Source: Pseudomonadota bacterium
GTDB taxonomy: Bacteria; Pseudomonadota; Gammaproteobacteria; Burkholderiales; Burkholderiaceae_C
Direction of reading: 5' to 3'
DNA length: 64,000 nucleotides
NCBI GenBank assembly: GCA_020161145.1
Contig: JAIUPQ010000001.1
Span: forward strand, 372,001 to 436,000
Position numbers and translations under genes: made by a program
The notes under the pieces: model-generated
The model's input: only the letters and a program-made list of their open reading frames with translations
What the model was told of the DNA's origin: nothing
The model's database searches: none
Shown: in pieces, positions 19,874 to 64,000 of the stretch
Layout: the number at the start of each line of letters is the position of its first letter
Position numbering within the stretch: position 1 is the stretch's first letter

Positions 19874-20899
19874 GTGAGCACTACACTGCCGGCCAGCCCC
19901 ACGCACGCCCCGCGCGTACCCGCCATGCCCCACACCCAATCGCGTCCGCCCGGCAGGCCTTCGGCCCGCTCGCCCTGGCCGGACCGGCTGTTTGCCATCG
20001 CCGCGCACGCGGCGGCCTGGATCACCCTGGGTCTGCTGGCGGCCATCATCGTTTCGCTGGTCGTCGGCGCTGCGCCCGCCATCGAGGAGTTCGGCCTGGC
20101 CTTCCTCTGGACCACCGACTGGGATCCGGTGACGCAGAAGTTCGGCGGTCTGGTGATGATTTACGGCACGCTGATGACCTCGGCCATTGCCCTCATCATC
20201 GCCGTGCCGGTCAGCTTTGGCATTGCCTTGTTCCTCACCGAGCTGTCGCCGCGGTGGCTCAAGCGTCCGCTGGGCACGGCCATCGAGTTGCTGGCTGCCG
20301 TGCCCTCCATCGTCTACGGCATGTGGGGCCTGCTGGTCTTCGGCCCCATCCTGGCCACCTATGTGCAGCAGCCGCTGCAGGAGCTGGTGGGCGAGACGCC
20401 GTACCTGGGCGCCCTGGTGTCGGGCCCGCCGGTGGGCATCGGCATCCTCTCGGCCGGCATCATCCTGGCCATCATGGTCATTCCGTTCATTGCGGCGGTG
20501 ATGCGCGACGTGTTTGAAACCACCCCGCCCATGCTCAAGGAGTCGGCCTACGGCCTGGGCTCCACCACCTGGGAGGTGATGTACAAGGTGGTGTTGCCGT
20601 ACTCGCGCATCGGCGTCATCGGCGGCATCATGCTGGGCCTGGGCCGCGCACTGGGCGAGACCATGGCCGTCACCTTCGTCATCGGCAACTTCAACCAGCT
20701 CGACTCGCTGTCGCTGTTCCAGGCCGCCAACAGCATCACCTCGGCACTGGCCAACGAGTTTGCCGAGGCGGGCGAGGGCTTGCATCGCGCGGCGCTGATG
20801 TACCTGGGCCTGGTGCTGTTCTTCATCACCTTCGTGGTGTTGGCCTGCTCCAAGCTGCTGCTGATGCGCATGAAAAAAGGTGAGGGGAGAAACGCATGA
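19874..20899 (+). CDS. pstC: Phosphate ABC transporter permease PstC
   Basis: A 341-residue inner-membrane permease with six or more helices. Features are [10 protein letters not shown] before the core, [34 protein letters not shown] split over helix 3, and the EAA-type loop [44 protein letters not shown] at 19874 (VSTTLPASP) is chosen because GGAG lies nine bases upstream; ATG at 19925 is possible but lacks a ribosome site. Its stop overlaps a 21-codon mini-ORF by ATGA. Confidence 0.95.
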
Positions 20900-20961
20900 G
20901 CACGCCGGGCCGCTCCCAAGTTCGAATCCCGCAGCACGCAGTGCGGAGGGTCGTCCAATGA
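20896..20961 (+). repeat. Coupling mini-ORF module, copy 1 (pstC-pstA)
   Basis: A 66-base unit filling the whole gap between pstC and pstA. It reads as a 21-codon ORF ([18 protein letters not shown], stop). Its ATG overlaps the pstC stop (ATGA, 20896-20899) and its stop overlaps the pstA start (ATGA, 20958-20961). The pstA ribosome site GGAGGG lies inside it (20945-20950). The copy at 33948-34013 is identical at about 56 of 66 bases. Whether the peptide is made is unknown. Confidence 0.8.
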
Positions 20962-21830
20962 ATGCCGTTGGCTTGACCATGTCGTCCCATAAGCTGGCGC
21001 GCCACAAGGCCCGCAAGCGCGTCAACGCCATCGCCCTGGTGGCCTCGCTGGCGGCCATGGTCTTCGGCCTGGTGTGGCTGGTGTGGATTCTGTGGGTGAC
21101 GCTGAGCCTGGGCCTGTCTGGCCTGTCGCTGGCGGTGTTCACCGAGATGACGCCACCCCCCATGGCCGAGACGGGTGGCCTGGCCAACGCCATTTACGGC
21201 TCGCTGGTGATGGTGCTGGCGGCCGCCGCCATCGGCACGCCGCTGGGCGTGTTCGCCGGCGTCTATCTGGCCGAGTACGGCCAGAAGACCTGGCTGGGCA
21301 CCGTGGTGCGGTTCATCAACGACATCCTGCTGTCGGCGCCCTCCATCGTCATTGGCCTGTTCATCTACGCGGTGGTGGTGACCCGGTTCAAGTCCTTCTC
21401 GGGCTGGGCTGGCGTGCTGGCACTGGCGCTGATCGTCATCCCGGTGGTCATCCGCACCACCGAGAACATGCTGCTGCTGGTGCCCAACGCGCTGCGCGAG
21501 GCCGCCTACGCGCTGGGCACGCCCAAGTGGCGCGTCATCGGCGGCATCACGCTCAAGGCGGCGCGGGCCGGCGTCATCACCGGCGTGCTGCTGGCGCTGG
21601 CGCGGGTGGCCGGCGAGACGGCGCCGCTGCTGTTCACGGCGCTGTCCAACCAGTTCTGGTCATCCGACTTGTCGGCCCCCATGGCCAGCCTGCCGGTGAC
21701 CATCTTCAAGTTCGCGATGAGCCCCTATGAAAACTGGCAGCAACTGGCCTGGGCAGGGGTGTTCCTCATCACCATGGGCGTGCTGCTGCTCAACATCCTG
21801 GCGCGCGTGCTGTTCAAGAACAAACATTGA
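20958..21830 (+). CDS. pstA: Phosphate ABC transporter permease PstA
   Basis: A 290-residue partner permease of PstC. After a basic N-terminus ([12 protein letters not shown]) come six helices, with [27 protein letters not shown] and the EAA-loop sequence [29 protein letters not shown], and [14 protein letters not shown] near the end. ATG at 20958 is preceded by GGAGGG supplied by the mini-ORF module. An in-frame longer reading through the module gives a Ser/Pro/Arg prefix without family similarity and is rejected. Confidence 0.95.
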
Positions 21831-21844
21831 CGAGCAAGGCCTAC

Positions 21845-22636
21845 ATGACCACGACCTCTCCCCACCCGGTGCTGGCCGGCGAGACCATCAAGGTCTCGGT
21901 GCGCGACCTGGATTTCTACTACGGCGGCTTCCACGCCCTCAAGCGCATCAACCTGGACCTGCCGCTGCACAAGGTCACGGCCTTCATCGGCCCCTCGGGC
22001 TGCGGCAAGTCCACGCTGCTGCGCACCTTCAACCGCATGTTCGAGCTCTACCCCGAGCAGCGTGCCGACGGCCAGATCGTCGTTGATGGCCAGAACATCC
22101 TGGATCGCCGCCACGACGTTTCGCTGGTGCGCGCCAAGATCGGCATGGTGTTCCAGAAACCCACGCCGTTCCCGATGTCCATCTACGACAACATCGCCTT
22201 CGGCGTGCGGCTGTTCGAGAACCTCTCGCGCGTGGAGATGGACGAGCGCGTGGAGTGGGCGCTCAAGAAAGCGGCGCTGTGGAACGAGGTCAAGGACAAG
22301 CTGGGCCAGAGCGGCTCGGGCCTCTCCGGTGGCCAGCAGCAGCGGCTGTGCATCGCGCGCGGCGTGGCCATCAAGCCCGAGGTGCTGCTGCTGGACGAAC
22401 CCTGCTCGGCGCTGGACCCCATCTCCACCGGCAAAATCGAGGAGTTGATCCACGAGCTCAAGAGCGAGTACACCGTGGCCATCGTCACCCACAACATGCA
22501 GCAGGCGGCGCGCGTCTCCGACTACACCGCCTACATGTACCTGGGCGATCTGATCGAGTTCGGCAAAACCAACCAACTCTTCATGAAACCCACCAAGAAA
22601 GAAACCGAAGACTACATCACCGGCCGCTTCGGTTAA
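21845..22636 (+). CDS. pstB: Phosphate ABC transporter ATPase PstB
   Basis: A 263-residue ATPase energising phosphate import. It has Walker [10 protein letters not shown], the PstB-typical NRMFELYP after it, Q-loop [19 protein letters not shown] signature LSGGQQQR, Walker [14 protein letters not shown] and switch His in [12 protein letters not shown] at 21845 has AAGG five bases upstream; a TTG at 21827 overlapping the pstA stop (TTGA) is a coupled alternative adding six residues. phoU follows 9 bp later. Confidence 0.97.
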
Positions 22637-22645
22637 GGATTTGCC

Positions 22646-23359
22646 ATGGCAGACAAACACCTCTCCACCCAGTTCGACGCCGAGCTTGCCGGCGTCTCCA
22701 CCCGCGTGCTCGAAATGGGCGGCCTGGTCGAGGCCCAGGTGGCCCAGGCCATCTACGCGCTGACCAACTTCTCGGGCGAGACGGCCACCCAGGTCATCCG
22801 CACCGAAGAGCACGTCAACCAGATGGAAGTCGAGATCGACGCCGAGCTCTCCAGCATCATCGCCCGCCGCCAGCCCACGGCGCGCGACCTGCGGCTGCTG
22901 ATTGCCGTGTCCAAGACCACCGGCAACCTCGAGCGCGTGGGCGACGAGGCTGCCCGTGTGGCGCGCACCGTGCAGCGGTTGATCAACACCGGTGTCTTCA
23001 GCCGCCTGCGGCTGCCGGTCTCCGACATTGCCTTCGAGGCCGAACTGGCCACGGCGCAGCTGCGCAAGGCCCTGGACGCGTTTGCTCGGCTGGATGCCGT
23101 GCAGGCCGCCGAAATCATCCGGGCCGACAACAAGATCGACCAGGAGTTCGACGGCATGATGCGCAAGCTCATCACCTACATGATGGAAGACCCGCGCACC
23201 ATCTCGGCCTCCATCGACCTGGTGTTCGTCGCCAAGGCCATCGAGCGCGTGGGCGACCACGCCAAAAACCTGGCCGAGCAGATCATCTACATCGTCAAGG
23301 GCACCGACGTGCGCCACAACTCCCTGGAAACCATCGAGACTATTGCCACCCAAAAATAG
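22646..23359 (+). CDS. phoU: Phosphate signalling protein PhoU
   Basis: A 237-residue, all-helical protein made of two PhoU repeats, each with an ExxxD metal-binding pattern (RTEEHVNQMEVEID in the first, RADNKIDQEF in the second) and the GNLERVGDEAARVA / KAIERVGDHAKNLAE signatures. PhoU links the Pst transporter to PhoR and keeps PhoR inhibitory when phosphate is plentiful. It lies between pstB and phoB, ribosome site AAGGA. Confidence 0.96.
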   Translation: MADKHLSTQFDAELAGVSTRVLEMGGLVEAQVAQAIYALTNFSGETATQVIRTEEHVNQMEVEIDAELSSIIARRQPTARDLRLLIAVSKTTGNLERVGDEAARVARTVQRLINTGVFSRLRLPVSDIAFEAELATAQLRKALDAFARLDAVQAAEIIRADNKIDQEFDGMMRKLITYMMEDPRTISASIDLVFVAKAIERVGDHAKNLAEQIIYIVKGTDVRHNSLETIETIATQK

Positions 23360-23386
23360 GCGGTGACCACCGAAAGCTGAGCAGAT

Positions 23387-24085
23387 ATGTCCCGCGTATT
23401 GGTTGTTGAAGACGAAACGGCGATTGGCGAGCTGATTGCCATCAACCTGCGCCATGCCGGTTTCGAGGTCACGCTGGCGCAGGACGCCGGCCAGGCCCAG
23501 GCCGCCATCGACGCGGTGTTGCCCGACCTGGTGCTGCTGGACTGGATGCTGCCCGGCCGCTCGGGCGTGTCGCTGGCCCAGCAGTGGCGCGGCGAGGCGC
23601 GCACCCGTGAGGTGCCCCTCATCATGCTGACCGCCCGCGCCGACGAGCGCGACAAGATCACCGGCCTGGACGCCGGCGCCGACGACTACCTGACCAAACC
23701 GTTCTCCACCCAGGAGCTGCTGGCGCGCATCAGGGCCGTGCTGCGCCGCCGCGCGCCGCAGGCGCTGGACACGGCGGTGGAGATCGACGGCCTGCGGCTC
23801 GACCCGGCCACGCGCCGCGTGCAGCGCGGCGACCTGGAGCTCAAGCTGGGCCCCACCGAGTTCAAGCTGCTGCACTTTTTGATGACCCACCCCGAACGGG
23901 TGCACAGCCGCGCCCAGTTGCTGGACCGCGTCTGGGGCGATCACGTCTTCATCGAAGAGCGCACCGTGGACGTGCACATCAAGCGGCTGCGCGAGGCGCT
24001 GGCGCCGGGCGACCGCGCCCACCTGCTGGAGACGGTGCGCGGCGCCGGCTACCGGCTGGCCAAACCCAGCACCCAGGCGGCCTGA
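23387..24085 (+). CDS. phoB: Phosphate regulon response regulator PhoB
   Basis: A 232-residue OmpR-type regulator. The receiver domain (1-120) has acidic pocket VVEDE, phospho-acceptor Asp in LVLLDWMLPG (about residue 53), Thr in LTARADE and Lys in YLTKPFS. The C-terminal winged helix (about 130-228) has LGPTEFKLLHFLMTHPERVHSR and VDVHIKRLREAL. Phosphorylated PhoB should bind the Pho boxes at 18688 and probably 6814. It is 27 bp after phoU and 13 bp before phoR. Confidence 0.97.
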   Translation: MSRVLVVEDETAIGELIAINLRHAGFEVTLAQDAGQAQAAIDAVLPDLVLLDWMLPGRSGVSLAQQWRGEARTREVPLIMLTARADERDKITGLDAGADDYLTKPFSTQELLARIRAVLRRRAPQALDTAVEIDGLRLDPATRRVQRGDLELKLGPTEFKLLHFLMTHPERVHSRAQLLDRVWGDHVFIEERTVDVHIKRLREALAPGDRAHLLETVRGAGYRLAKPSTQAA

Positions 24086-24098
24086 CCTCCCGCACGCC

Positions 24099-25424
24099 AT
24101 GGTCTGGTTTGCCCCGCGCGTGCTGCTGACCATGCTGGCTGCCCTGTTCGGCGGCTGGCTGGGCGAGTGGCTGGCCACCCAGTGGGCGCTGCCCACCATC
24201 CCTGTCACCCTGATGGGCGCCACGTTGGGCGTGGGCCTGTTCGTGGCCCGGGACGCCTGGCGTGGCAGCCGCCTGTCGGCCTGGCTGAGCCGGCCCGAGG
24301 GGGGGGCGCCGGTGAGCAGCCTGGGCCTGTGGGGTGACCTGGCCGTGCGCGCCGAGCGTGCCCTGCGGGCGCGCGAGCGCGACACCGCGCAAGAGCGCGA
24401 GCGCCTGACCCAGTTTTTGCAGGCCATCGAGGCCTCGCCCAACGGCGTGGTGCTGCTCGATGCCGGCGACCACATCACCTGGTGCAGCCGCGTGGCGGCC
24501 GACCACCTGGGCCTGCAGGTGGAGCGCGACCTGTTGCAGCGCATCACCAACCTGGTGCGGGCGCCGGCCTTCGTGCAATACCTGGCCGATCCCCGGCCGG
24601 AGCAGACCGTGGTCATTCCGGCGCCGCAGGGCAATGGCCAGCTGTCGCTGATGCTGCGCCGCTATGGCACCGAGGGCCAGCGTCTGCTGCTGGTCCAGGA
24701 CGTCACCGTGCGCGAGCGCCAGGAGGCCATGCGGCGCGACTTCGTGGCCAACGTCTCGCACGAAATCCGCACCCCGCTGACCGTGCTCAGCGGTTTTGTC
24801 GAGACCATGCACACACTGCCGCTGACCGAGGTTGAACGCGACCGCGTGCTCGTCCTCATGTCCCAGCAGACCCAGCGCATGCAGACGCTGGTGGGCGACC
24901 TGCTGACGCTGGCCCGGCTCGAAGGCAGTCCGCGCCCGGCCGTTGATGACTGGGCGCCTTTGGCGCGCGTGGGGCAGGCCGTCGAGGCCGAGGCCCGCGG
25001 GCTTTCGGCCGGCGCCCACCATCTCAGCTTCGAATGGGGTGAGGCGCTGGAGGTGGGCGGCGCCGAGGCCGAGCTGGCCAGTGCCCTGGCCAACCTGGTC
25101 AACAACGCCGTGCGCTACACCCCGGCCGGTGGCACGGTGCGCATCAAGGCCCAGCGGGCCCACGACGGCGCGCTGCACATCGCCGTGACCGACACCGGCC
25201 CCGGCATTGCGGCCGAGCACCTGCCCCGGCTGACCGAGCGCTTCTACCGGGTGGACAGCAGCCGCTCGCGCGAAACCGGTGGCACCGGGCTGGGCCTGTC
25301 CATCGTCAAGCACGTGGCCCAGCGCCATGGTGGCGAGCTGCGCATCGACAGCCTGCCGGGCCGCGGCTCCACCTTTACTTTGGTGCTGCCGCCGACCCGC
25401 CTTCGCGCCGCCACACCCCGGTGA
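24099..25424 (+). CDS. phoR: Phosphate regulon sensor kinase PhoR
   Basis: A 441-residue histidine kinase. It has two short hydrophobic segments at the N-terminus (about 4-22 and 29-50) without a large periplasmic domain, as in E. coli PhoR, a PAS domain (about 105-205, FLQAIEASPNGVVLLDAGD), H-box NVSHEIRTPLTVLSGF (His about 221), N-box LVNNAVRYTPAGG, G1 DTGPGI, F-box RFYRVDSSRS and G2 GTGLGLSIV. It senses phosphate via PstSCAB-PhoU. The last 50 bases overlap the convergent glycosyltransferase gene. Confidence 0.96.
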   Translation: MVWFAPRVLLTMLAALFGGWLGEWLATQWALPTIPVTLMGATLGVGLFVARDAWRGSRLSAWLSRPEGGAPVSSLGLWGDLAVRAERALRARERDTAQERERLTQFLQAIEASPNGVVLLDAGDHITWCSRVAADHLGLQVERDLLQRITNLVRAPAFVQYLADPRPEQTVVIPAPQGNGQLSLMLRRYGTEGQRLLLVQDVTVRERQEAMRRDFVANVSHEIRTPLTVLSGFVETMHTLPLTEVERDRVLVLMSQQTQRMQTLVGDLLTLARLEGSPRPAVDDWAPLARVGQAVEAEARGLSAGAHHLSFEWGEALEVGGAEAELASALANLVNNAVRYTPAGGTVRIKAQRAHDGALHIAVTDTGPGIAAEHLPRLTERFYRVDSSRSRETGGTGLGLSIVKHVAQRHGGELRIDSLPGRGSTFTLVLPPTRLRAATPR

Positions 25425-27060
25425 TGTACTGACGATCGGTGGGTTGGCGCACCAAGGCCACCAACTGCCAGCCCGGACGCACCGGTTGGGCTCGGTCCAT
25501 GCGCCAGCGGCTGACCGAGAAACCGCAGTCCGTCGGCGCCACGAGTTTGGTATGCACCTGCCAGCGGTCGGCCGTCACCAGCGCCGCCACGAAGGGGGGC
25601 GGCAGGCCTGTCTGCACGCAAGCCCCCGCCGGCACATGCGGTGCTACCCGGTTGACCCAGGGCGCCAGGCTGCGGGCATAGTTCAGCGGCGGCATCAGCA
25701 GCGTCATCACCAGCAGCCAGGTCAGAGCCACGCCGCCAGCCGGCAGCGCCAGCATCTTCCACAGCGCGTGGCGGTGGCGGGCCGTGCGCCAGCGCACCAG
25801 GGCCAGCCAGGCGATGGTGGCTGCCAGCGCGGGCACCAGCACCCAAAGCGAGATGGTTTGCGGCGCCTTGAATCCGGGCGCCAGCCGCATGATGTTGGCC
25901 AGCGGCTGCGCCGGCACGCCCAGGTAGATGGAGGCCGCCACCACCCAGACGGCAATGGCCGCCGCCGTGAAGAAAAAGACCGAAAACCAATCCATGGCGG
26001 CGCCGGTGCCGCGTGCAAACGTGGGCAGCGCAAACGCTGCCAGCACCGCCAGGCCGGGCAGCATCAGCAGCATCACGCGGTCGGAGCCACCCATGGCCAG
26101 CCAGGCCGGCACCAGCACCGCCAACGTGGCCAGTGGCACCGAGATGTGGCGCTTGCGCAGCTGGCGCCGCCAGCGCCACAGCGTCCACAGCGCCAACGGC
26201 CAGACGGGCCAGGTGAACCAGATGCCGGCGCGGGCCATTTGCAGCAGTGTGCGGGCGTCGTCCGGCGCCACCAGACGCCAATGCCAGGCGCCCAGGCCCA
26301 ACGCCACCAACACGGCGGCCAGTGCGGCGAGAGCCAGCCAGGGCACCAGCGCCCGGGCCGTGGCGTGGCTGCTCAGGGCGCAGACCACGGCCGCCGTCAG
26401 CGCCAGCATCAGCGCCAGCGCAGGTGCACCGCTGGCGGCCAGCATGGGCAGCAGCAACAGCACCGCCGTGCGGGCCAGACTGGGCCGCTTGGGCACCACG
26501 GCCAGCGCCCAGATCAGCCCGGTGACCAGCGCCAACTGCATCAACTCGGGCGTGGTCTCGTGGCCCAGCTCCAGCAGGCCCAGCGAGGCCATCAGCGCCA
26601 GCAGCGCACCGTCGGCCAGCGCGCGGGCGTAGTCGACCTCGCTGGCCTCGCCGCCAAAGGCAAACGCCACCGGCAACGCGGGCTCGGTGCGCGCCAGGTG
26701 GTAGGTGGCGTACCAGACGCCGCCCAGGCAGGCGCCCAGCAGCAGCGCAAACGGCAGCCGCACCGCCAGCGCCGCGTCCAGCCAGGGCGTGGTCAGCCAG
26801 ATGGCTGCGGCGCCCAGCCAATGCGGCAGCAGCGCCGCATCGGGGTGGGCGCCGCCCAGCGTCGGCGCCAGCCATGGGCTCTGGCCATGGGCCAGCGACC
26901 ACATGTAGCCGTAAGCCGTCAGGTCGGCGTTGCGCCAGGGGTCGCGCCCCAGCACGCCCGGCAGCACATAGGCGGCGATCAGCGACCACAGCGCCCAGCG
27001 CGGCAGGCGCGCGGCTGCGCGCTGGGTGACGAGGGCGGGGGAGGGTTGGGTGCTGCTCAT
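25375..27060 (-). CDS. Polytopic membrane glycosyltransferase-like protein (GT-C fold, ArnT/PMT type)
   Basis: A 561-residue inner-membrane protein with roughly a dozen hydrophobic segments. The first long loop carries GRDPWRNADLTAYGYMWSLAHG, similar in place and composition to the acidic active-site loop of ArnT/PMT-type lipid-linked sugar transferases, and the C-terminal 100 residues are soluble (ACVQTGLPPPFVAALVTADRWQV onward). It may glycosylate lipid A or another surface acceptor; donor and acceptor are unknown. It is convergent with phoR, overlapping by 50 bp. Its start at 27060 is 10 bp from the L31 terminator, so it likely has its own weak promoter or depends on read-through. Confidence 0.7.
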   Translation of the reverse strand: MSSTQPSPALVTQRAAARLPRWALWSLIAAYVLPGVLGRDPWRNADLTAYGYMWSLAHGQSPWLAPTLGGAHPDAALLPHWLGAAAIWLTTPWLDAALAVRLPFALLLGACLGGVWYATYHLARTEPALPVAFAFGGEASEVDYARALADGALLALMASLGLLELGHETTPELMQLALVTGLIWALAVVPKRPSLARTAVLLLLPMLAASGAPALALMLALTAAVVCALSSHATARALVPWLALAALAAVLVALGLGAWHWRLVAPDDARTLLQMARAGIWFTWPVWPLALWTLWRWRRQLRKRHISVPLATLAVLVPAWLAMGGSDRVMLLMLPGLAVLAAFALPTFARGTGAAMDWFSVFFFTAAAIAVWVVAASIYLGVPAQPLANIMRLAPGFKAPQTISLWVLVPALAATIAWLALVRWRTARHRHALWKMLALPAGGVALTWLLVMTLLMPPLNYARSLAPWVNRVAPHVPAGACVQTGLPPPFVAALVTADRWQVHTKLVAPTDCGFSVSRWRMDRAQPVRPGWQLVALVRQPTDRQYITGVWRREGGSAAAPK

Positions 27061-27069
27061 GGGGTCAAC

Positions 27070-27096
27070 AAAAAAGGCAGCCTGGGCTGCCTTTTT
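27070..27096 (-). terminator. Intrinsic terminator of rpmE
   Basis: AAAAAGGCAGC (27071-27081) pairs perfectly with GCTGCCTTTTT (27086-27096) around a 4-nt loop, with U-runs on both sides. It is 30 bp past the L31 stop codon. Confidence 0.88.
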
Positions 27097-27126
27097 GATG
27101 ATAGCGAGTGATGTGCTCGCAACCGC

Positions 27127-27387
27127 TTACTTCTTGCCGCTGAGGTGGGCAAACTTGTTGCGGAACTTCTCGACGCGGCCGCCCAGCGTGTCCACGCTCT
27201 TTTGCTGGCCGGTGTAGAAGGGGTGCGACTCGCTGCTGGTTTCCAGCTTGAAGAGGGGCAACTCGCGGCCGTCATCCATCTTCACCATCTCTTTGGCCTG
27301 CGCGCACGAGCGCGTGACGAACTTGAAACCGTTGGAGAGGTCCACGAAGCAGACGTCGCGGTAGTTGGGGTGGATGCCTTCTTTCAT
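27127..27387 (-). CDS. rpmE2: 50S ribosomal protein L31, type B
   Basis: An 86-residue L31. The N-terminus [27 protein letters not shown] matches the type B (zinc-independent) group: the CxxC zinc ribbon is absent, the protein is longer than type A (about 70), and the tail [20 protein letters not shown] is typical. ATG at 27387 has AAAGG upstream; an in-frame start 24 codons earlier lies in the promoter region. In this order of bacteria it commonly lies after rho; here a MATE gene and an outer-membrane protein gene separate them. Confidence 0.95.
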
Positions 27388-27485
27388 GGCCTGGCCTTTC
27401 GCTCTTCTTTCGCGTGTTCGCGAGTTGCTGCGGCAGCCACCCGGCACCATGCCAGGCACTTGCCACCACTAGGGGGGAACCGCGC

Positions 27486-27491
27486 ATTATA
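27486..27491 (-). promoter_or_regulatory. -10 box upstream of rpmE
   Basis: A perfect TATAAT on the minus strand about 100 bases upstream of the L31 start. No convincing -35 box is seen at the proper spacing. Confidence 0.4.
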
Positions 27492-27505
27492 GCCATAATG
27501 CCACG

Positions 27506-28267
27506 ATGATGCACCCTGTCTTGTTCGCGGCGGCGCTGCTCGCGGCCGTCAACGTCCACGCCGCCGAGGCCTTCGACGCCGACCGACCGGACGAGTCCGA
27601 GTCGGCCGAGGTGGTGGGCGACGGGTATTTCCAGGTTGAGACCAGCGTCATGTCCGAGCGGGTCAGGGCCGACGACGGCCGAAGGGTCACGCGCCAGAGC
27701 ACGCCCACGCTGCTGCGCCTGGGCGTGGCCGAAGACTGGGAGCTGCGGCTGGAGACGGATGGTCGGCTGCGCGAGGGCGGCATCAACGGCTGGGCCGACC
27801 TGTCGCTGGGCGTCAAATGGCACAGTCAGGACGGCGACGAAGAGGCGTGGCGCCCCAGCATGGCCTGGCTGGCGCATCTGGACTTGACCACGGGCGCGGC
27901 GGCCTTTCGTGCGCCCGGCTTGCGCCCCTCGCTGCGCGTGGTGGCCGAGTGGGAGTTGCCGGCGGGTGGGTCGCTCTCGGTGATGCCCGGCGTGTTCAGC
28001 GCCCGCGACGAGGCCGGCGCGCGGTATGTGGGCGGCATCCTGGCCGTGGCGTTGGGGCGCGCGTTCACACCGCGCCTCAAGGGCTTTGTCGAGGTGGCTG
28101 CCGGGCAACTGGCCGGCAGCCGCCATGGCGGCGACGAGTGGCTGCTGGATGGCGGCCTGATCTACCTGCTGACGCCCACCGTCCAGATCGACGTGGCCCT
28201 CTACAAAGGGCTGACGGCCAGCGCGGCGGACAGCGGCTGGACGGCGGGGCTGTCGGTGCGCTATTGA
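27506..28267 (+). CDS. Predicted outer-membrane beta-barrel protein (phenol MetA-pathway/transporter-like)
   Basis: A 253-residue protein with a signal peptide (cleavage near VHA-AE), then alternating short beta strands: FQVETSVMSERV, TPTLLRLGVAEDWELRLETDG, LSLGVKWH, ending in aromatic [11 protein letters not shown], the usual C-terminal signature of outer-membrane barrels. The N-terminal DADRPDESESAEVVGDGYFQVE pattern matches the broad family annotated as transporter/putative MetA-pathway of phenol degradation, whose function is not established. ATG at 27506 is doubled (ATGATG); the ribosome site is weak. It overlaps the convergent MATE gene by 7 bp. Confidence 0.7.
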   Translation: MMHPVLFAAALLAAVNVHAAEAFDADRPDESESAEVVGDGYFQVETSVMSERVRADDGRRVTRQSTPTLLRLGVAEDWELRLETDGRLREGGINGWADLSLGVKWHSQDGDEEAWRPSMAWLAHLDLTTGAAAFRAPGLRPSLRVVAEWELPAGGSLSVMPGVFSARDEAGARYVGGILAVALGRAFTPRLKGFVEVAAGQLAGSRHGGDEWLLDGGLIYLLTPTVQIDVALYKGLTASAADSGWTAGLSVRY

Positions 28268-29595
28268 CGAGCCAGTCGCTGCGCGCTGCGATGAAAGCGC
28301 CAGCCCAGCAACACGGCGGCGCAGACGAGACCTGCGATCAGGCCCAGCCACATGCCACGCGGTCCCCAGCCCAGGCCCAGCCCCAGCAGCGCGCCCACCG
28401 GCATACCCACGCCCCAGTAGGCCAGCGCCGCCAGCAGCATGGGCACGCGGGTGTCTTTGAGGCCGCGCAGCGCGCCGGCAAACAGCACCTGAATGCTGTC
28501 GGGAAACTGGAACACCGCCGCATGCAGCAGCAGCAGCGCGGCCAGCGTGGCCACGGCCGCGTCCTGGGTGTAGCGGGCGACGATGGCGTTGTGGCCGAAC
28601 AGCAGCAGCAGGCCGGTCACCGTCGCCATGACCAGTGCCAGCGTGAGCCCGGCGCGAGCCGCCTGGCGCACGCCATGCGCGTCGCCCCGTCCCACGGCAT
28701 GACCCACGCGCACGGTGGTGGCCTCGGCGATGCCGAACGGAATCATGAAGCACAGGCTGGCCACGTTGATGGCGATCTGGTGGGCGGCCGCCGGTACCTC
28801 ACCCAGGCGGCCAATCAGCAGCGCGGTGGTGATGAAGAGGCCGCCCTCCATGGTCACCGTCACGCCAATGGGCAGGCCGGTGGCCAGCAGGCTGCGCAGG
28901 TCGGCCCAGCGGGGCGGCTCCAGGTGGGCGAACAGCCCCAGATCGGCAAAGCGCCGTGTGCGGCGCAGATAGAGCGTGAAACCCAGTGCCTGTGCCCACA
29001 TCATCAGGCTGGACGCCAGGCCCAGGCCGCCCGCGCCCATTTCGGGCAGGCCCAGGCGGCCGAACGTCAGCGCCCAACCAAGAGGCACCAGCAGCGCCAG
29101 GCCGGCGAAGCCCAGCACCAGCGTGGGCACGGACCAGTGCAGGCCGTCGCACAGGTAGCGCATGGTCAGGTAGACGGTCAGCGCGGGCATGCCCCAGCGG
29201 ATGCCGTGCAAAAACGCCGTGGCGCCGGCGCGCAACTCGGGCGCGATGCCCAGGTGGCCCAGCCCCAGCGGCGCCAGTGTCAGCAGCAGCGCCATCAGCA
29301 TGCCCAGGCCCAGGGCCAGCCACAGGGCCTGGCGAAACAGCGGCGCAATCTCGGTGCGCCGGCCGGCGGCATCGAGTTGCGACACCGACGGCGGCAGCGC
29401 CATCAGCGTGCCCAGCACCACCAGCAGCGGCAGAAAGTAGATGGCCGTGCCCACCGAGACGCCGGCCAACGTCGCCGTGCCATGCTGGCCGGCGATGATG
29501 GCGTCCACCGTGCCCACGAGGCCGGTGGCCAGATGGCCACCCACCAGTGGCAGCGCCAGGCCCGCGGTGCGGGTCAGATCGTGGCGCAGGGTCAA
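28261..29595 (-). CDS. MATE family multidrug/Na+ antiporter (NorM-like)
   Basis: A 444-residue membrane protein with 12 predicted helices in two related halves. Family marks include [24 protein letters not shown] at the N-terminus, [37 protein letters not shown] in the second half, and [19 protein letters not shown]-like [17 protein letters not shown]. NorM proteins expel cationic drugs using Na+ or H+. The start is a TTG at 29595 overlapping the rho stop (TTGA), with AGAGG just upstream inside rho, so it is probably translationally coupled to rho. Confidence 0.9.
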
Positions 29596-30857
29596 CCGCC
29601 TCTTCGCATCATGTCGAAGAAGTCGAGGTTGGTCTTGCTGGCCTTCATCTTGTCGAGGATGAACTCCATCGCCTCGATCTCATCCATGTTGTAGAGCAGC
29701 TTGCGCAGGATCCAGCTTTTTTGCAGGATCTCGGGCTTGAGCAGCAGCTCTTCGCGGCGCGTGCCGCTCTTGTTGATGAGGATGGAGGGGTAGACGCGCT
29801 TTTCGGCCATGCGGCGGTCGAGGTGAATCTCGCAGTTGCCGGTGCCTTTGAACTCTTCGTAGATCACCTCGTCCATCTTGGATCCGGTGTCGATCAGCGC
29901 GGTGCCGATGATGGTCAGGCTGCCGCCTTCTTCCACGTTGCGGGCGGCGCCAAAGAAGCGCTTGGGGCGTTGCAGCGCATTGGCGTCCACACCGCCAGTC
30001 AGCACCTTGCCCGAACTGGGCAGCACGTTGTTGTAGGCGCGGGCCAGGCGGGTGATGGAGTCCAGCAGGATGACCACGTCCTTGCCCAGCTCGGTCAGGC
30101 GCTTGGCGCGCTCGATGACCATCTCGGCCACCTGCACGTGGCGGGCGGCCGGCTCGTCGAAGGTGGAAGAGATGACCTCGCCGCGCACCGTGCGCAGCAT
30201 CTCGGTCACTTCTTCGGGGCGCTCATCGACCAGCAGCACGATGAGGTGGATCTCGGGGTGATTGGCCACCAGCGCATGGGCGATGGACTTCATCATCTCG
30301 GTCTTGCCGGTCTTGGGCTGGGCCACCAGCAGCGCGCGCTGGCCTTTGCCGATGGGCGCGATCAGGTCGATGATGCGGCCGGTGATGTTCTCGTCGCCCT
30401 TGAAGTTCTCACGCTCCAGCCTGAACGCCTCTTTCGGGAAGAGCGGCGTCAGGTTCTCGAACATGATCTTGTGCTTGTTCTGCTCGGGCGTCAGGCCGTT
30501 GACCCGGTCCACCTTGACCAGCGCGAAGTAACGCTCGCCGTCCTTGGGCACGCGCACCTCGCCTTCCACCAGATCGCCGGTGTGCAGGTTGAAGCGGCGC
30601 ACCTGGCTGGGTGAGAGGTAGATGTCGTCCGTCGACGCCATGTAGCTGGTGTCGATGGAGCGCAGAAACCCGAAACCATCGGGCAGCACCTCGAGCACGC
30701 CGTCGCCGAACACCTGTTCGCCGGCCTTGGCGCGCTTTTTCATGATGGCGAACATCAGCTCCTGCTTGCGCATGCGGCTGACGTTTTCGATTTCGAGCGC
30801 CTCGCCCATTTCAATCAGGGCAGAGACGTGCAGGGCTTTGAGTTCGGCAAGATGCAT
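29592..30857 (-). CDS. rho: Transcription termination factor Rho
   Basis: A 421-residue hexameric RNA helicase. The N-terminal helical domain starts [19 protein letters not shown], the cold-shock-like RNA-binding domain contains DGFGFLRS (about 60-67) and [12 protein letters not shown], Walker A is [11 protein letters not shown] (about 176-186), and Q/R-loop motifs are [13 protein letters not shown] and [14 protein letters not shown] at 30857 gives the standard N-terminus. It lies downstream of trxA in the same direction with a 153-bp gap, and its stop overlaps the MATE start. Confidence 0.98.
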
Positions 30858-30935
30858 GGCGACGGCACCTGGTTGCAGGTGGTCCTGAAGCATGAGGAAG
30901 AAGGGGAAGGGGGCGGCCAGCTTGCTGGCCGGGCG
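30858..30935 (-). promoter_or_regulatory. Pyrimidine-rich rho leader with stem-loop
   Basis: On the minus strand the sequence before rho has a stem-loop (CGGCCAGC/GCTGGCCG, 30914-30931) followed by an almost G-free C/U tract (about 30892-30913, CCCCCTTCCCCTTCTTCC). Such tracts resemble rut sites; E. coli rho is autoregulated by Rho-dependent attenuation in its leader. Confidence 0.4.
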
Positions 30936-31010
30936 GGCGCCGCATCCGCTGGGGAGAGGCGCCTCGCAGGGCGACTCCGCGCGCTTGGCACGGGCCGCCT
31001 TGGGAAGAGA

Positions 31011-31340
31011 TTATAGATTGGCGTCTATGAACTGCGTCAACTGGGCCTTGGAGGCCGCGCCAACTTTGGTCGCCACGGGTTGGCCGCCCTTGAACAGCAT
31101 CAGCGTGGGAATGCCGCGGATGCCGAACTTGGCCGGCACGTCGCGGTTGGCGTCCACGTCCAGCTTGGCAATCTGGAGCTTGTCGCCATAGACCGGCGCC
31201 AGCTCGTCCAGCACCGGGGCAATCATCTTGCACGGGCCACACCAGGTGGCCCAATAGTCCACCAGCACGGGGGTGGGCGAATTCAGCACGTCGGCTTCAA
31301 ACGAAGCGTCGGTGATGTGTTTGATCAGGGGGCTGCTCAT
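31011..31340 (-). CDS. trxA: Thioredoxin 1
   Basis: A 109-residue thioredoxin, the same length as E. coli TrxA. The active site WCGPC is in [20 protein letters not shown] (about residues 31-35), the cis-Pro loop is [11 protein letters not shown] and the helix-4 tail is [13 protein letters not shown]. It reduces disulfides in cytosolic proteins such as ribonucleotide reductase. ATG at 31340 gives the standard N-terminus; reading further upstream in frame runs into the opposite-strand addB gene. rho is the next gene downstream. Confidence 0.97.
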
Positions 31341-31404
31341 CGCGAATCCTTGGCAGAAAGGCGCCCGGCGGCTGACCGCGGGCAGGGCAGAATGATTGTG
31401 ACAT

Positions 31405-33951
31405 ATGGCCCCATCGCTCGCGCCCACCACCCGAGGTCTGCCGCCAGGCCCCGCCGACGCAGCCTGGTGGCGCACGGCGGCCCAGGCGGTGCTGGAGGCC
31501 GCCCGGGCGCAGGGTTCGTTGGCGCGCGATGCCGTCTGGCTGTTGCCGTTTGCGGCCTTGCTGCCGCTGGCGCGCCGGGCGACGGTCGAGCTGGGCGGCT
31601 GGCCGCCGCGCATCGAAACCCCGCAGACGCTGGCTGCCCAACTGGCTCCTGCGCCGGCCACGCCGCCCGGGGCCTACAGCGGCGATGCCCGGCGTGATAC
31701 GTTGCGTGCCCGCCAACTGATGCGTGCCACCGCCTGGGGGCGTACCTGGGCGCAGCGCGACGCCGGGGCGTTCGACGCTGCCCAGGCCAGCTTGCTGACC
31801 ACCGCCCGCACACTGGCCAGCCACGCCGCCACGCTGGCGCCGGCCGAGCGGCCGGCCTGGTGGCAGGCCGCGCGTGAACTGCTTGCGCCCCAGGCTGCCT
31901 ACCGTGAAGGGCAGCTCGCGTTGCTGGCCATCGACTGGGTGGCCGCGCACGACGCTGCGGCCACCGACGTGCTGTTCGACCTGCGCCCCGGCTTGCTGGT
32001 GGCGTTGCAGGCCGGCGGTGCCGACGCCCTGACCGAGCGCCTGCTGGCCGCCCAGGCCGCGCGCGGCGCTGCGGCGCTGCGCCTGCTGGCCGATGCGCCC
32101 GCCAGCACGCCGTGGTGGACCGTGGCGTCCGCTCCGCCGGCTCTGGCCGCGTTCACCGACGCCGAGACCGAGGCCCAGGCCGTGGCCGCCCGCGTGCTGA
32201 CCGAGTTGCGCCAGGGCCAGCCGGTGGCGCTGGTGGCGCTGGAGCGGCGCGTGGTGCGCCGCGTGCATGCGCTGCTGGCGCGGGCCGGCGCGGCGGTGCA
32301 GGACGACACCGGCTGGCGCCTGCCCACCACCCGGGCTGGCGCCCGGGTGATGCAGGCGCTGCGCGCCGCCCGGGCGCGGCCTGAGGCCACCGACGCCGCC
32401 AGCCGCGACGCCTGGCTGGCCTGGCTCAAAGACACCGACTGGGCCGCGCCTGCTGCCGTCGATGCCCTGGAATCCGCCTGGCGCGGCCGCTCGCTGGCCC
32501 TGGCCCGCCGGGAGCAGGCCGAGGCGCTGTGGGCCGAGGCCGCCGCACACCTCGCACCCTGGCACGACCAACCCCAGCGTCCGCTGGCCGACTGGCTGGC
32601 CTTGCTGGCGCAGGCCGTGCCGACGGACGCCGCCGACCCCGCCGCCGCCGCCGTGGCCCTGGCGCTCACCGCGCCGTCGGGGCTGGTGGCCACGTTGCGG
32701 CTGGACGCCTTCATCACCTGGGTGGATGCCGCGCTGGAGCAAGCCGTCTATGTGCCCCGGCTGACCACGGCGGCCCAGGTGGTCATCACCCCCTTGGCGC
32801 GCGCCATGCTGCGGCCGTTTGCCGCCGTGCTGGTGCCCGGTGCCGATGCCCAGCGCCTGGGCCAAGGCCTTGCCGACGCGGGCCTGCTCACCCCGGCCCA
32901 GGCCGCGCGGTTGGGCCTGCCCACGCCCGATGCCCAGCGCCTGCGCGAGGCCCAGGTGCTGGCCCAACTGTTGCGCCAGCCGCGCCTGGCGCTGAGCTGG
33001 CACCAGGCCGAGGGTGGTCGGCCGCTGGCGCCCAGCCCGCTGCTGGAGCGGCTGGCACTGGCGCAGGGCGGCGGTGCGCTGCCCGCCTGGGATGCCGCCC
33101 CGCCGCAGCGCGCCTGGCCGGCCACGCCGTCCGCGCCGCCGCAGCCCGATGCCTCGGCCGCCGCCTGGCCGGCCTCGCTGTCGGCCAGCGCACTGGCCGC
33201 CTGGCGCGCCTGCCCTTACCAGTTTTTTGCCCGCACGCTGCTGGGTCTGGCCGAAGACGCCGAGCTGGAGGCCGACCGCAGCCGCGCCGACCACGGCTCC
33301 TGGCTGCACGCCACGCTGGATTGCTTTCATGCCAGCCGCAGCGGCATGGACGACGCGGCCGAATTGCGGGCCGCGGCCCGCACGGCGCAGGCCGACCTGG
33401 GCCTTACCGATGCGGCGCTGCTGCCGTTTCGCGCCCTGTTCGACTCGCTGGTGCCGCGTTACCTGGACTGGCTGCACGCCCGCGACGCAGAGGGTTGGCG
33501 GGTCGCGCACAGCGAGGCCACGCGGCGCGGCACGGGCCTGCATGGGCGCATCGACCGCATCGACACCGGCCCCGCCGGCCGTGTGCAACTGCTGGACTAC
33601 AAGAGCGGCAGTGCCAGCCGGTTGAAAGACGGCCTCAAGGCGCCTCTCGAAGACACGCAGTTGATGGTCTATGCCGCGCTGGCCTTGCAAAGCGGCGATG
33701 CCGTGGCCGATGGCCTGGCCGCCGCCTACCTGCCGCTGGGCGAGCGCAGCGGCGCGCTGACCGAGCTGCCCAACCCCGACGTGGCCGAAGCGCTCAGCCT
33801 CTGGTGGCCGGCGGTGGCGGCCGAACTGGCGCGGGGCCGGGCGGGTGAGCCGCTGCGCGCACTGGGTCAGGGCGATACCTGCACCCACTGCCTGGCACGC
33901 GGCCTGTGTCGCCGCGACGCCTGGGCCGACGACGTGGCGCCGTTGCCATGA
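31405..33951 (+). CDS. addB: PD-(D/E)XK nuclease subunit, AddB-like (double-strand break repair)
   Basis: An 848-residue protein. The N-terminal two thirds are Ala-rich and resemble an inactivated helicase. The C-terminal RecB-type nuclease domain (about 590-848) shows [19 protein letters not shown], His in [16 protein letters not shown], Asp-x-Lys in LLDYKSG, and QLMVYAAL. The Cys of ACPYQFF plus [10 protein letters not shown] near the end give the C...C-x2-C-x5-C pattern of the AddB iron-sulfur staple. With AddA it would resect DNA ends for recombination. A 21-codon mini-ORF overlaps its stop. Bacillus AddB is longer; this matches the shorter proteobacterial form. Confidence 0.88.
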
Positions 33952-34013
33952 GCGCGCCGGGCCGCTCCCAAACGCGAATCCCGCAGCGCGCCGTGCGCAG
34001 GGTAGGGCAATGA
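33948..34013 (+). repeat. Coupling mini-ORF module, copy 2 (addB-addA)
   Basis: A 66-base unit between addB and addA, homologous to 20896-20961. It encodes a 21-residue peptide ([18 protein letters not shown]). Its ATG overlaps the addB stop (33948-33951) and its stop overlaps the addA start (34010-34013). Five residues differ from copy 1 at most; rare Arg codons CGA and AGG are kept in both. Confidence 0.8.
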
Positions 34014-59248: not shown

Positions 59249-59363
59249 GCGAACCCTTTGCGGACGGACGAAAGCTACTGTCCTATCGGAAGCACTGTGA
59301 CGCAGCTTGAGGTGGCGTGCTCGGTGGTATTGGGTGGCAAAACGCGCGCAAACGTGGCCGCTC

Positions 59364-59475
59364 GCCAGAAAAGAAAAGGGCGACCGGCGGGCACCGTTCG
59401 CCAGCAAAGAAAAGGGCGACCGGCGGGCACCGTTCGCCAGCAAAGAAAAGGGCGACCGGTTTGCACCGGTCGCCC
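59364..59475 (-). repeat. Three tandem 36-bp repeats forming terminator-like hairpins
   Basis: Units at 59364-59399, 59400-59435 and 59436-59471 share GCCAGCAAAGAAAAGGGCGA and a following CCGGcgggcACCG segment. On the minus strand each gives a GC hairpin followed by TTTTCTTT. The first met after flhC is a perfect 11-bp stem (59450-59460 with 59465-59475, loop of 4). They lie 90 bp past the flhC stop and 115 bp before motA. Confidence 0.8.
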
Positions 59476-61853: not shown

Positions 61854-62597
61854 ATGAAAGTCGCTGTCATCACCCCCTACTACAAAGAGCCCCGCACCTG
61901 GCTGGAACGCTGCCTGCTCAGCGTGGCCGGCCAGCGCCATGCGGCCACCCACATCGTCGTGGCCGACGGCCATCCGCAGGACTGGATCGACGAGTTGCCC
62001 GTGCGCCATCTCAAGCTGGACCAGGCCCACGGCGACTACGGCAACACCCCGCGCGCCGTGGGCGCCATGCTGGCGGCCAGCGAGGGCTTCGACGCCGTGT
62101 GCTTCCTGGACGCCGACAACGCCTTGACGCCCACCCACGTCGAGAGCTGCGTGGCGCTGGCGGCGGCCGACCCGCTGCTGGACTACGTCACCACGCGCCG
62201 CCACATGGTGCGCGAGGACGGCAGCATCATCCCGCTGCGCATCCGCGAAGACCACGACAACAGCCACGTGGACACCAACTGCTTTTTCCTGCTGCGCGGC
62301 GCCATGCACACGCTGGCGCGCTGGGCGCTGATGCCCCGGCCCATGGCCGTCTACGGCGACCGCGTCTACCTGGCCTCGCTGCGCGAGGAGGGGCTGCGCA
62401 GCGCCTGCACCGAAGAGCGCAGCGTGCTCTACCTGTGCACCTGGGCCCACCTGTACCGCGAGGTGGGCGAGCCGGCCCCGGCCTTTGCCAAGGAGCCGCT
62501 GCCGCTGGCGCAACTGCCGCGCTGGTACGCCGGGCTGCCGCCGCGCGAGCGCGAGGTCACCCAGCGCCTCTCAGGCATGGCCTGCCCGGTGGCCTGA
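61854..62597 (+). CDS. Glycosyltransferase, GT2-like
   Basis: A 247-residue soluble protein. The N-terminus KVAVITPYYKEPRTWLERCL matches GT-A fold family 2 enzymes, and the metal-binding DxD is in CFLDADNALTP (about residue 86). Further shared motifs are REDGSIIPL, HVDTNCFFLL and RWALMPRPMAVYGDRVYL, which recur almost unchanged in the partial gene at 63528-64000, so the two are paralogues. Acceptor and donor are unknown; the adjacent glf makes UDP-galactofuranose a candidate donor. ATG at 61854 is set by the first beta strand. Confidence 0.82.
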   Translation: MKVAVITPYYKEPRTWLERCLLSVAGQRHAATHIVVADGHPQDWIDELPVRHLKLDQAHGDYGNTPRAVGAMLAASEGFDAVCFLDADNALTPTHVESCVALAAADPLLDYVTTRRHMVREDGSIIPLRIREDHDNSHVDTNCFFLLRGAMHTLARWALMPRPMAVYGDRVYLASLREEGLRSACTEERSVLYLCTWAHLYREVGEPAPAFAKEPLPLAQLPRWYAGLPPREREVTQRLSGMACPVA

Positions 62598-63527: not shown

Positions 63528-64000
63528 TCAGGTCGCCAGCGCGCAGCCGGTCAGCCGCCGCACCACCGCCAGATCGCCCGGCTGCAGCCGAGCCAGCCAG
63601 TTGCGCACCGGCTGGCCGTCGATGTTCTCTTTGGCAAACGCCGGCACCGGCTCGCCCAGCGCGCGGTAGAAGCTGCTCCAGGTGCACAGGTAGTGCACCG
63701 TGCGCGCAGGGCTGCGCCCGGCGCGCAGGCCGTCGGCCAGCAGGCCTTGCAGGTAGAAGCGGTCGCCCAGCAGCGCCATGGGCTTGGGCATCAGCGCCCA
63801 GCGCGCCACGCTGTGGAAGGCGCCCACCAGCAGGAAAAAGCAGTTGGTGTCCACGTGGCTCCAGTCGCCGTCGTCGCTGGCGTGCACGGCCATGATGGAG
63901 CCGTCCTCGCGGCACAGGTGGCGGCTGGCCGTCACGTAGTCGCAGCCGGTCTGCGCGGCCACCTGCACGCAGGTGGCGATGTGCTCCGGGGCATACCAGT
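63528..64000 (-). CDS. Glycosyltransferase, paralogue of 61854-62597, 5' end outside window
   Basis: The frame is open to the right window edge, where it reads WYAPEHIATCVQVA, so the start and the N-terminal catalytic part are missing. Visible residues (about 157) align with the C-terminal two thirds of the GT2 gene at 61854: REDGSIMAV, HVDTNCFFLLVGAFHSVAR, MPKPMALLGDRFYLQGLL and YLCTWSSFYRALGEPVPAFAKEN. It converges on the DUF707 gene from the opposite strand, so it is separately transcribed. Confidence 0.8.
   Translation of the reverse strand, partial: WYAPEHIATCVQVAAQTGCDYVTASRHLCREDGSIMAVHASDDGDWSHVDTNCFFLLVGAFHSVARWALMPKPMALLGDRFYLQGLLADGLRAGRSPARTVHYLCTWSSFYRALGEPVPAFAKENIDGQPVRNWLARLQPGDLAVVRRLTGCALAT

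Follow-up and report, generated by a model that had tools for sequence, protein, structure and literature searches.

A hairpin-bearing repeat at stop/start-coupled gene junctions in Burkholderiales

Why should two unrelated operons carry nearly the same short sequence at the point where one gene gives way to the next? The question arises in a stretch of 64,000 nucleotides from a genome of the Burkholderiales (a Pseudomonadota bacterium, contig JAIUPQ010000001.1, positions 372,001 to 436,000; the whole stretch is called the window below), in which similar modules join pstC to pstA and addB to addA. The original prediction took them for a 66-base translational linker that encodes a conserved 21-residue peptide. 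We find that the modules are members of a dispersed repeat family in which the conserved items are two hairpins, RTGA (ATGA or GTGA) ends and most of a ribosome-binding site. The element is probably a non-autonomous mobile one that settles at junctions of coupled operon genes and passes ribosomes to the next gene, by restart in a 62-nt form and by read-through in a 60-nt form.

Results

Both modules in the window read ATGAGC...ATGA and hold an open frame of exactly 21 codons plus stop (the mini-open reading frame, or mini-ORF). An ungapped alignment of the two over 68 nt gives 85% identity. A 35-nt core pattern matches only these two places in the window and none in 100 shuffles, and the other two matches listed for the structured model had E values of 0.18 and 2.4. 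The predicted pair of homologous modules, each with a 21-codon ORF and ATGA at both ends, is therefore borne out by the sequence. The predicted unit length needs correction, as the RTGA is shared and the repeating unit is 62 nt. A ribosome-binding site, GGAGG, precedes pstA in copy 1 as described, whereas copy 2 lacks GGAGG and has GCAGGG at that place. The two copies themselves were correctly identified but are just 2 of 18 in the genome.

A genome-wide search, which had been proposed as a check, returned 17 strong copies by BLAST and 18 full copies by the sequence model and by the structured model alike, plus one decayed copy. Once tandem copies are joined, the 18 copies occupy 15 sites, 3 of them tandem. 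At 12 of the 15 sites an upstream frame of 80 codons or more ends on the TGA of the first RTGA, and at 13 of 15 a downstream frame starts at the terminal RTG, with a -4 overlap; the anticipated stop/start overlap at both ends is thus found at most sites. Overlapping co-directional pairs, whatever the length of the overlap, account for about 15% of all gene pairs in most groups of prokaryotes (PMC6728339). The mean difference among the copies of this genome is 0.121, and to those of two other genomes, G010 and G020, it is 0.211 and 0.237.

Junctions that lack the element were recovered from other genomes of the genus for three of the sites. The pstC-pstA region had a match in 14 of 15 other genus genomes, and its junction was obtained for 13 (one was perhaps dropped as identical); all 13 are empty, with a direct ATGA or GTGA overlap. 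For murE-murF the junction was recovered in 14 congeners, of which 13 are empty, with a clear RTGA in frame with murF in 11; the exceptions are GTGATG in G004, which can be read either way, and CTGATG in G012. The three addB-addA junctions recovered comprise two ATGA and one TGATG. Clear RTGA stop/start overlaps are therefore present in 26 of 29 empty junctions, which indicates that the element was added at an existing stop/start overlap and left an RTGA on both sides. The remaining congener, G015, carries the 60-nt form of the element between murE and murF (L105, 1611-1674) where the genome studied here carries the 62-nt form; the two may have been inserted independently, or one form may have changed into the other.

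We pooled matches from the genus, from relatives and from a scan of named genomes (at least 119 stretches with at least 138 matches) and derived a set of 129 distinct copies with RTGA-like ends, leaving out copies without such an end. Among the matches listed, and with an end-picking rule that favoured 60 and 62, the unit is 62 nt long in 60 copies and 60 nt in 53; lengths of 61 (6 copies), 59 (5), 63 (4) and 65 nt (1) are rarer. In the 62-nt form the mini-ORF runs to a stop within the downstream RTGA. The 60-nt form lacks the geometry of a 21-codon mini-ORF; its first ATG shares the frame of the downstream gene, giving prefixes such as MSPPGRPKGEYRSAQHEGTPVS. PhnK of a Variovorax plasmid is annotated with a prefix of this type, its start overlapping the PhnJ stop at the element ATGA, in agreement with the mention, in the original prediction, of Ser/Pro/Arg-rich N-terminal prefixes on annotated proteins.

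At strict settings, copies were found in 10 of 200 genomes of the order, including the one studied here. Among 40 relatives, 16 had a match at an E value of 0.01 or better and 8 of those a strong full-length one. Four genomes labelled Bordetella had 13, 77, 10 and 118 matches, and in two other genomes of the family most copies are of a 65-nt form and encode different peptides. Among the named carriers are Ramlibacter, Rhodoferax, Rubrivivax, Piscinibacter, Rhizobacter, Ideonella, Castellaniella, Achromobacter and Bordetella; relatives of the element thus occur in many Burkholderiales genera, in line with the expectation of a widespread family. Arrays of four to five tandem copies occur in Bordetella genomosp. 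13 (L446, L423, L445), and in several arrays of the 60-nt form (L124, L164, L235) the start codon of the inner RTGA is gone. We considered carriage by plasmids or viruses and did not retain it: plasmid matches numbered none for the 62-nt copy and three for a 60-nt copy, and viral contigs gave no exact match to the pattern.

The distance from the first to the terminal RTG was compared at sites where both flanking frames have at least 100 codons. Frame classes 0, 2 and 1 were represented by 22, 14 and 1 of 37 sites, and by 18, 7 and 2 of 27 sites in a second set, mostly from Bordetella. The rare class is the one in which ribosomes would enter the downstream gene out of frame. This bias is compatible with translation through the element, a reading weakened by the shared ancestry of the lengths.

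An unguided mutual-information scan ranked element positions 40-48, 41-47 and 7-26 highest in the 62-nt copies and 39-47 highest in the 60-nt copies. In a pairing test on 81 copies, hand-picked from the 129 (1053 cells), with 500 shuffles and slid controls, the named structure pairs in 97.8% of cells. Double changes numbered 99, against a shuffled mean of 29.7; none of the 500 shuffles reached 99 and the slid controls were far lower. Across the 113 copies whose units measure 60 or 62 nt, 1400 of 1469 cells pair (1372 Watson-Crick, 28 G-U). G-U cells exceed A-C cells by 18 to 4 in the 81 rows and by 28 to 13 in the 113 rows, related rows not being independent; this excess fits a structure that may form on the sense strand. 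Most of the GGAGG or GAAGG that precedes the terminal RTG is conserved, one position being less so.

At three loci of the same genome (L018, L019 and L020, at about 1501-1580 of each), a terminator-like repeat with a CCCCCTCGGGGGG stem likewise begins with the CGCCGGGCCGCTCCCAAG block of the element, and similar hybrids of element and terminator-like repeat occur at L125, L166, L200, L208, L216 and L218. The coupling element and this repeat may represent two branches of a single family.

The peptide itself does not behave as a conserved item. In pairwise comparisons, made without a tree, of the 60 distinct 62-nt copies, the ratio of non-synonymous to synonymous differences (pN/pS) is 0.92 in the peptide frame and 1.02 and 0.61 in the other two, so that no purifying selection on the peptide is visible in these copies. 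Frame 1 is free of stops in 59 of the 60, and frame 3 equally so. Peptides diverge widely between clades (for example MSAAPGRSQASSHRSALHGGFQ). Of the 18 copies in the genome, 14 have a mini-ORF of exactly 21 codons; the others have 9 (an internal TGA), 22 or 42 codons, or no start. Together with the 60-nt class (53 of the 129 distinct copies), these results set aside the 21-residue peptide as the item that is kept.

The genes on either side of the element have no common function, as the prediction had supposed from its two operons. Pfam families were matched by all 20 flanking segments submitted, which come from 11 of the 15 sites. The pairs are a sigma-54 regulator and a hydrogenase small subunit; two Mur ligases, which by order and by eye are MurE and MurF; two branched-chain transport permeases; SapC and a glycerol-3-phosphate acyltransferase; a YhcG nuclease and a glycosyltransferase 28 (MurG by eye); MliC and a low-molecular-weight phosphatase; DUF934 and a phosphoadenosine phosphosulfate reductase; and a member of the aldehyde dehydrogenase family (ProA by eye) and LemA. 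A histidine kinase was matched at a further site, two transport permeases at the Pst site and the AddA helicase at addB-addA.

One of these sites lies in the dcw cell-wall cluster, where a gene for a YhcG-type PDDEXK nuclease directly precedes murG (L266, 6184-7325, contig C3 of the genome) and the YhcG-murG junction carries a copy of the element. In at least five congeners (G001, G006, G010, G011 and G014) the DNA matches on either side of the YhcG stretch abut, and no empty YhcG-murG site was recovered in congeners.

The features of the two copies in the window are listed in Table 1. The window also contains a 36-nt repeat in three tandem copies at 59358-59474, 87-96% identical to the first, and a 315-nt inverted repeat (62181-62495 and 63627-63941) whose arms are 75% complementary and 1131 nt apart.

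Table 1. Positions in the window of the two element copies and of the features that they carry or overlap.
Feature	Position	Strand	Basis
Element copy 1, pstC-pstA; 62-nt unit plus terminal ATGA, 21-codon mini-ORF	20896..20961	+	structured model R2, E 5e-28
pstC stop TGA, within first ATGA of copy 1	20897..20899	+	sequence
Hairpin 1, copy 1 (element positions 5-28); pair 6-27 broken	20900..20923	+	alignment position, covariation
Hairpin 2 with outer pairs, copy 1 (element positions 34-54)	20929..20949	+	covariation
GGAGG ribosome-binding site, copy 1, 8 nt 5' of pstA ATG	20945..20949	+	read in sequence, per-position variation
pstA start codon, overlapping mini-ORF stop (20959-20961)	20958..20960	+	sequence
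Element copy 2, addB-addA; 21-codon mini-ORF	33948..34013	+	structured model R2, E 3.7e-24
addB stop TGA, within first ATGA of copy 2	33949..33951	+	sequence
Hairpin 1, copy 2; pair 8-25 broken	33952..33975	+	alignment position
Hairpin 2, copy 2; GCAGG at ribosome-site position (element 50-54, 33997-34001)	33981..34001	+	alignment
addA start codon, overlapping mini-ORF stop (34011-34013)	34010..34012	+	sequence

Discussion

We propose that the element settles at an RTGA in which an upstream gene's stop and a downstream gene's start overlap, and that an RTGA remains on both sides. The upstream gene would retain its stop, and the ribosome-binding site and start that were there before would now open the element. 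In the 62-nt form, about 21 codons would be translated up to a stop at the terminal RTGA, with a restart on the downstream gene that the element's own GGAGG-like site may aid. The 60-nt form might permit read-through into the downstream gene, which would gain a prefix of about 20 residues. The element could thereby spread at small cost to the operon. The original description of a mobile or recurring translational linker stands as regards dispersal and the overlaps at both ends, and mobility is probable; mobility, like translation of the mini-ORF, restart and the low cost to the operon, is what we infer from sequence comparison.

Several observations weigh against this reading. Four of the 15 sites fit inexactly at one or both ends: the upstream stop lies 8 nt earlier at C13:33609 and 11 nt earlier at C8:335738, C8:429678 has a truncated start and no clear genes, and C8:367278 has an upstream frame of 126 codons and no downstream gene. 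The expected upstream frame is open at 81 of 96 first-copy sites, against 11 and 57 for the other frames, and the expected downstream frame at 47 of 63 sites, against 0 and 39; open frames are by themselves a weak test because the genomes are GC-rich. Of 40 sites that have lost the terminal RTG, 23 have an open in-frame reading, against 15 and 26 for the other frames, which proves nothing for the element ATG as the sole start; single cases of such use are suggestive. Frame lengths are inherited from master copies, and the frame bias is therefore not independent evidence. Single copies (three sequences) fold no better than shuffles; support for the hairpins comes from covariation alone. Folding of 60 copies shows no sign of a freeing of the ribosome-binding site by ribosomes on the mini-ORF (0.37 against 0.38 unpaired), and the idea that hairpin 2 masks this site until the mini-ORF is translated is unsupported. 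The copies of G010 are as diverse within the genome (0.261) as between genomes. Finally, Y1_Tnp is absent from the genome studied here despite its 18 copies, and the flanks of eight Y1 genes in other genomes held no strong copy and one weak match (E 0.061).

The last two results bear on an alternative that we consider unlikely, namely that the element is of the REP-like or IS200/IS605 type (REP, repetitive extragenic palindromic). A Y1 transposase would cut after the RTGA and recognise the hairpins as single-stranded DNA, and the position in operons would reflect the survival of harmless insertions. In its favour are the RTGA ends, the tandem copies, the pair of hairpins on a single strand and the strand-specific wobble pairs, together with a presumed likeness to IS200/IS605 ends; Y1 genes were also present in 8 of the 10 genomes searched. 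The genome with 18 copies nonetheless has no Y1 gene, only one of the eight Y1 loci gave even a weak match, and the sites are concentrated on stop/start overlaps. The link to Y1 transposases, including the REP-associated tyrosine transposases (RAYT), is thus unsupported, and the search of the genome for Y1_Tnp and of the eight Y1 flanks for copies produced no candidate for a mobilising enzyme.

We hold it rather improbable that the element is a structured RNA regulator, such as a protein-binding or mRNA-processing signal, recruited between cistrons and only incidentally mobile. Covarying hairpins and the excess of G-U over A-C cells on the sense strand would suit such a regulator, but the functions of the host operons are unrelated, the same junctions in congeners lack the element except at one murE-murF site, and a search of Rfam with seven loci gave no match up to an E value of 1. 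Least probable by far is a functional small-protein family with the 21-residue peptide as the selected product: although frame 1 is nearly always open and is kept in some copies with 59- or 65-nt units, frame 3 is just as open, pN/pS is close to 1, the peptides differ between clades, the 60-nt copies have no such peptide and covariation in the hairpins alters its residues.

A mobile element of coupled junctions therefore remains our preferred reading. More tentatively, and with somewhat less than even confidence, we suggest that the Burkholderiales harbour an independently evolved class of selfish element whose niche is the coupled junction, with a structured hand-off of ribosomes in two frame states (restart or prefix fusion) that would rewire coupling and N-termini across genomes. 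The element offers an explanation for puzzling N-terminal prefixes on annotated proteins. It also provides natural before-and-after pairs: an occupied junction can be set beside its empty counterpart, and the two forms can be compared at murE-murF. Such pairs could be used to measure how stop/start coupling sets protein ratios.

Comparison with known elements

In the literature searched, which covered few subscription papers, we found no account of a stop/start-linked repeat in Burkholderiales. Rickettsia palindromic elements are described as entering coding frames and adding a peptide to host proteins (PMC10969869). The 60-nt form of the present element would likewise add a peptide, but the element lies at gene starts and also has an out-of-frame form. 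REP sequences are dispersed, hairpin-bearing repeats between genes, sometimes in arrays (PMC2817692). The element is similarly dispersed and hairpin-bearing; it differs from REP/RAYT systems in the lack of a Y1 gene in its own genome or of a strong copy beside the eight Y1 genes elsewhere, and in that its copies lie on stop/start overlaps.

The repeat named BRE (Hot et al. 2011) is GC-rich, occurs in Bordetella and Comamonadaceae, partly in tandem, and is described with no function proposed (PMC3110155). Its copies measure 75-91 bp in Bordetella, one of them lying at 3605317-3605401 in B. pertussis, with partial copies of about 40-60 bp; some overlap the ends of ORFs by a few bases, some lie within coding sequence and some loci lie between convergent genes (PMC3110155). 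The passage that describes it mentions no stop/start linkage, hairpin covariation or ribosome-binding site (PMC3110155), and its length of 75-91 bp contrasts with a unit that is as a rule near 60 nt in our Bordetella copies, a length that the 66-position model favours. Because lexA lies next to one BRE locus, the element loci retrieved were examined for a LexA motif, and none was present. Compared by description alone, BRE may be the same sequence family as the element.

The closest kind known to us is the mycobacterial interspersed repetitive unit (MIRU). MIRUs are described in a 2025 review as seemingly mobile and as inserting at start codons, with an ORF coupled to the gene at a spacing of -4 nt, a coupling that probably limits the cost of insertion (PMC12548453); copy number and tandem arrangement vary (PMC2734929). 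The present element is also short, dispersed and in part tandem and is found at start codons with a -4 overlap; its 62-nt form has a short ORF that may be coupled to the next gene. MIRUs are mycobacterial, whereas the element belongs to Burkholderiales, and for the element two covarying hairpins, a ribosome-binding site and a second, in-frame class of 60 nt are documented. Supply and colleagues reportedly gave a DTGA target rule for MIRUs in 1997. By description rather than by sequence, the element looks built like a MIRU, and it would extend the MIRU-type way of living to another phylum, with evidence from structure and from empty sites.

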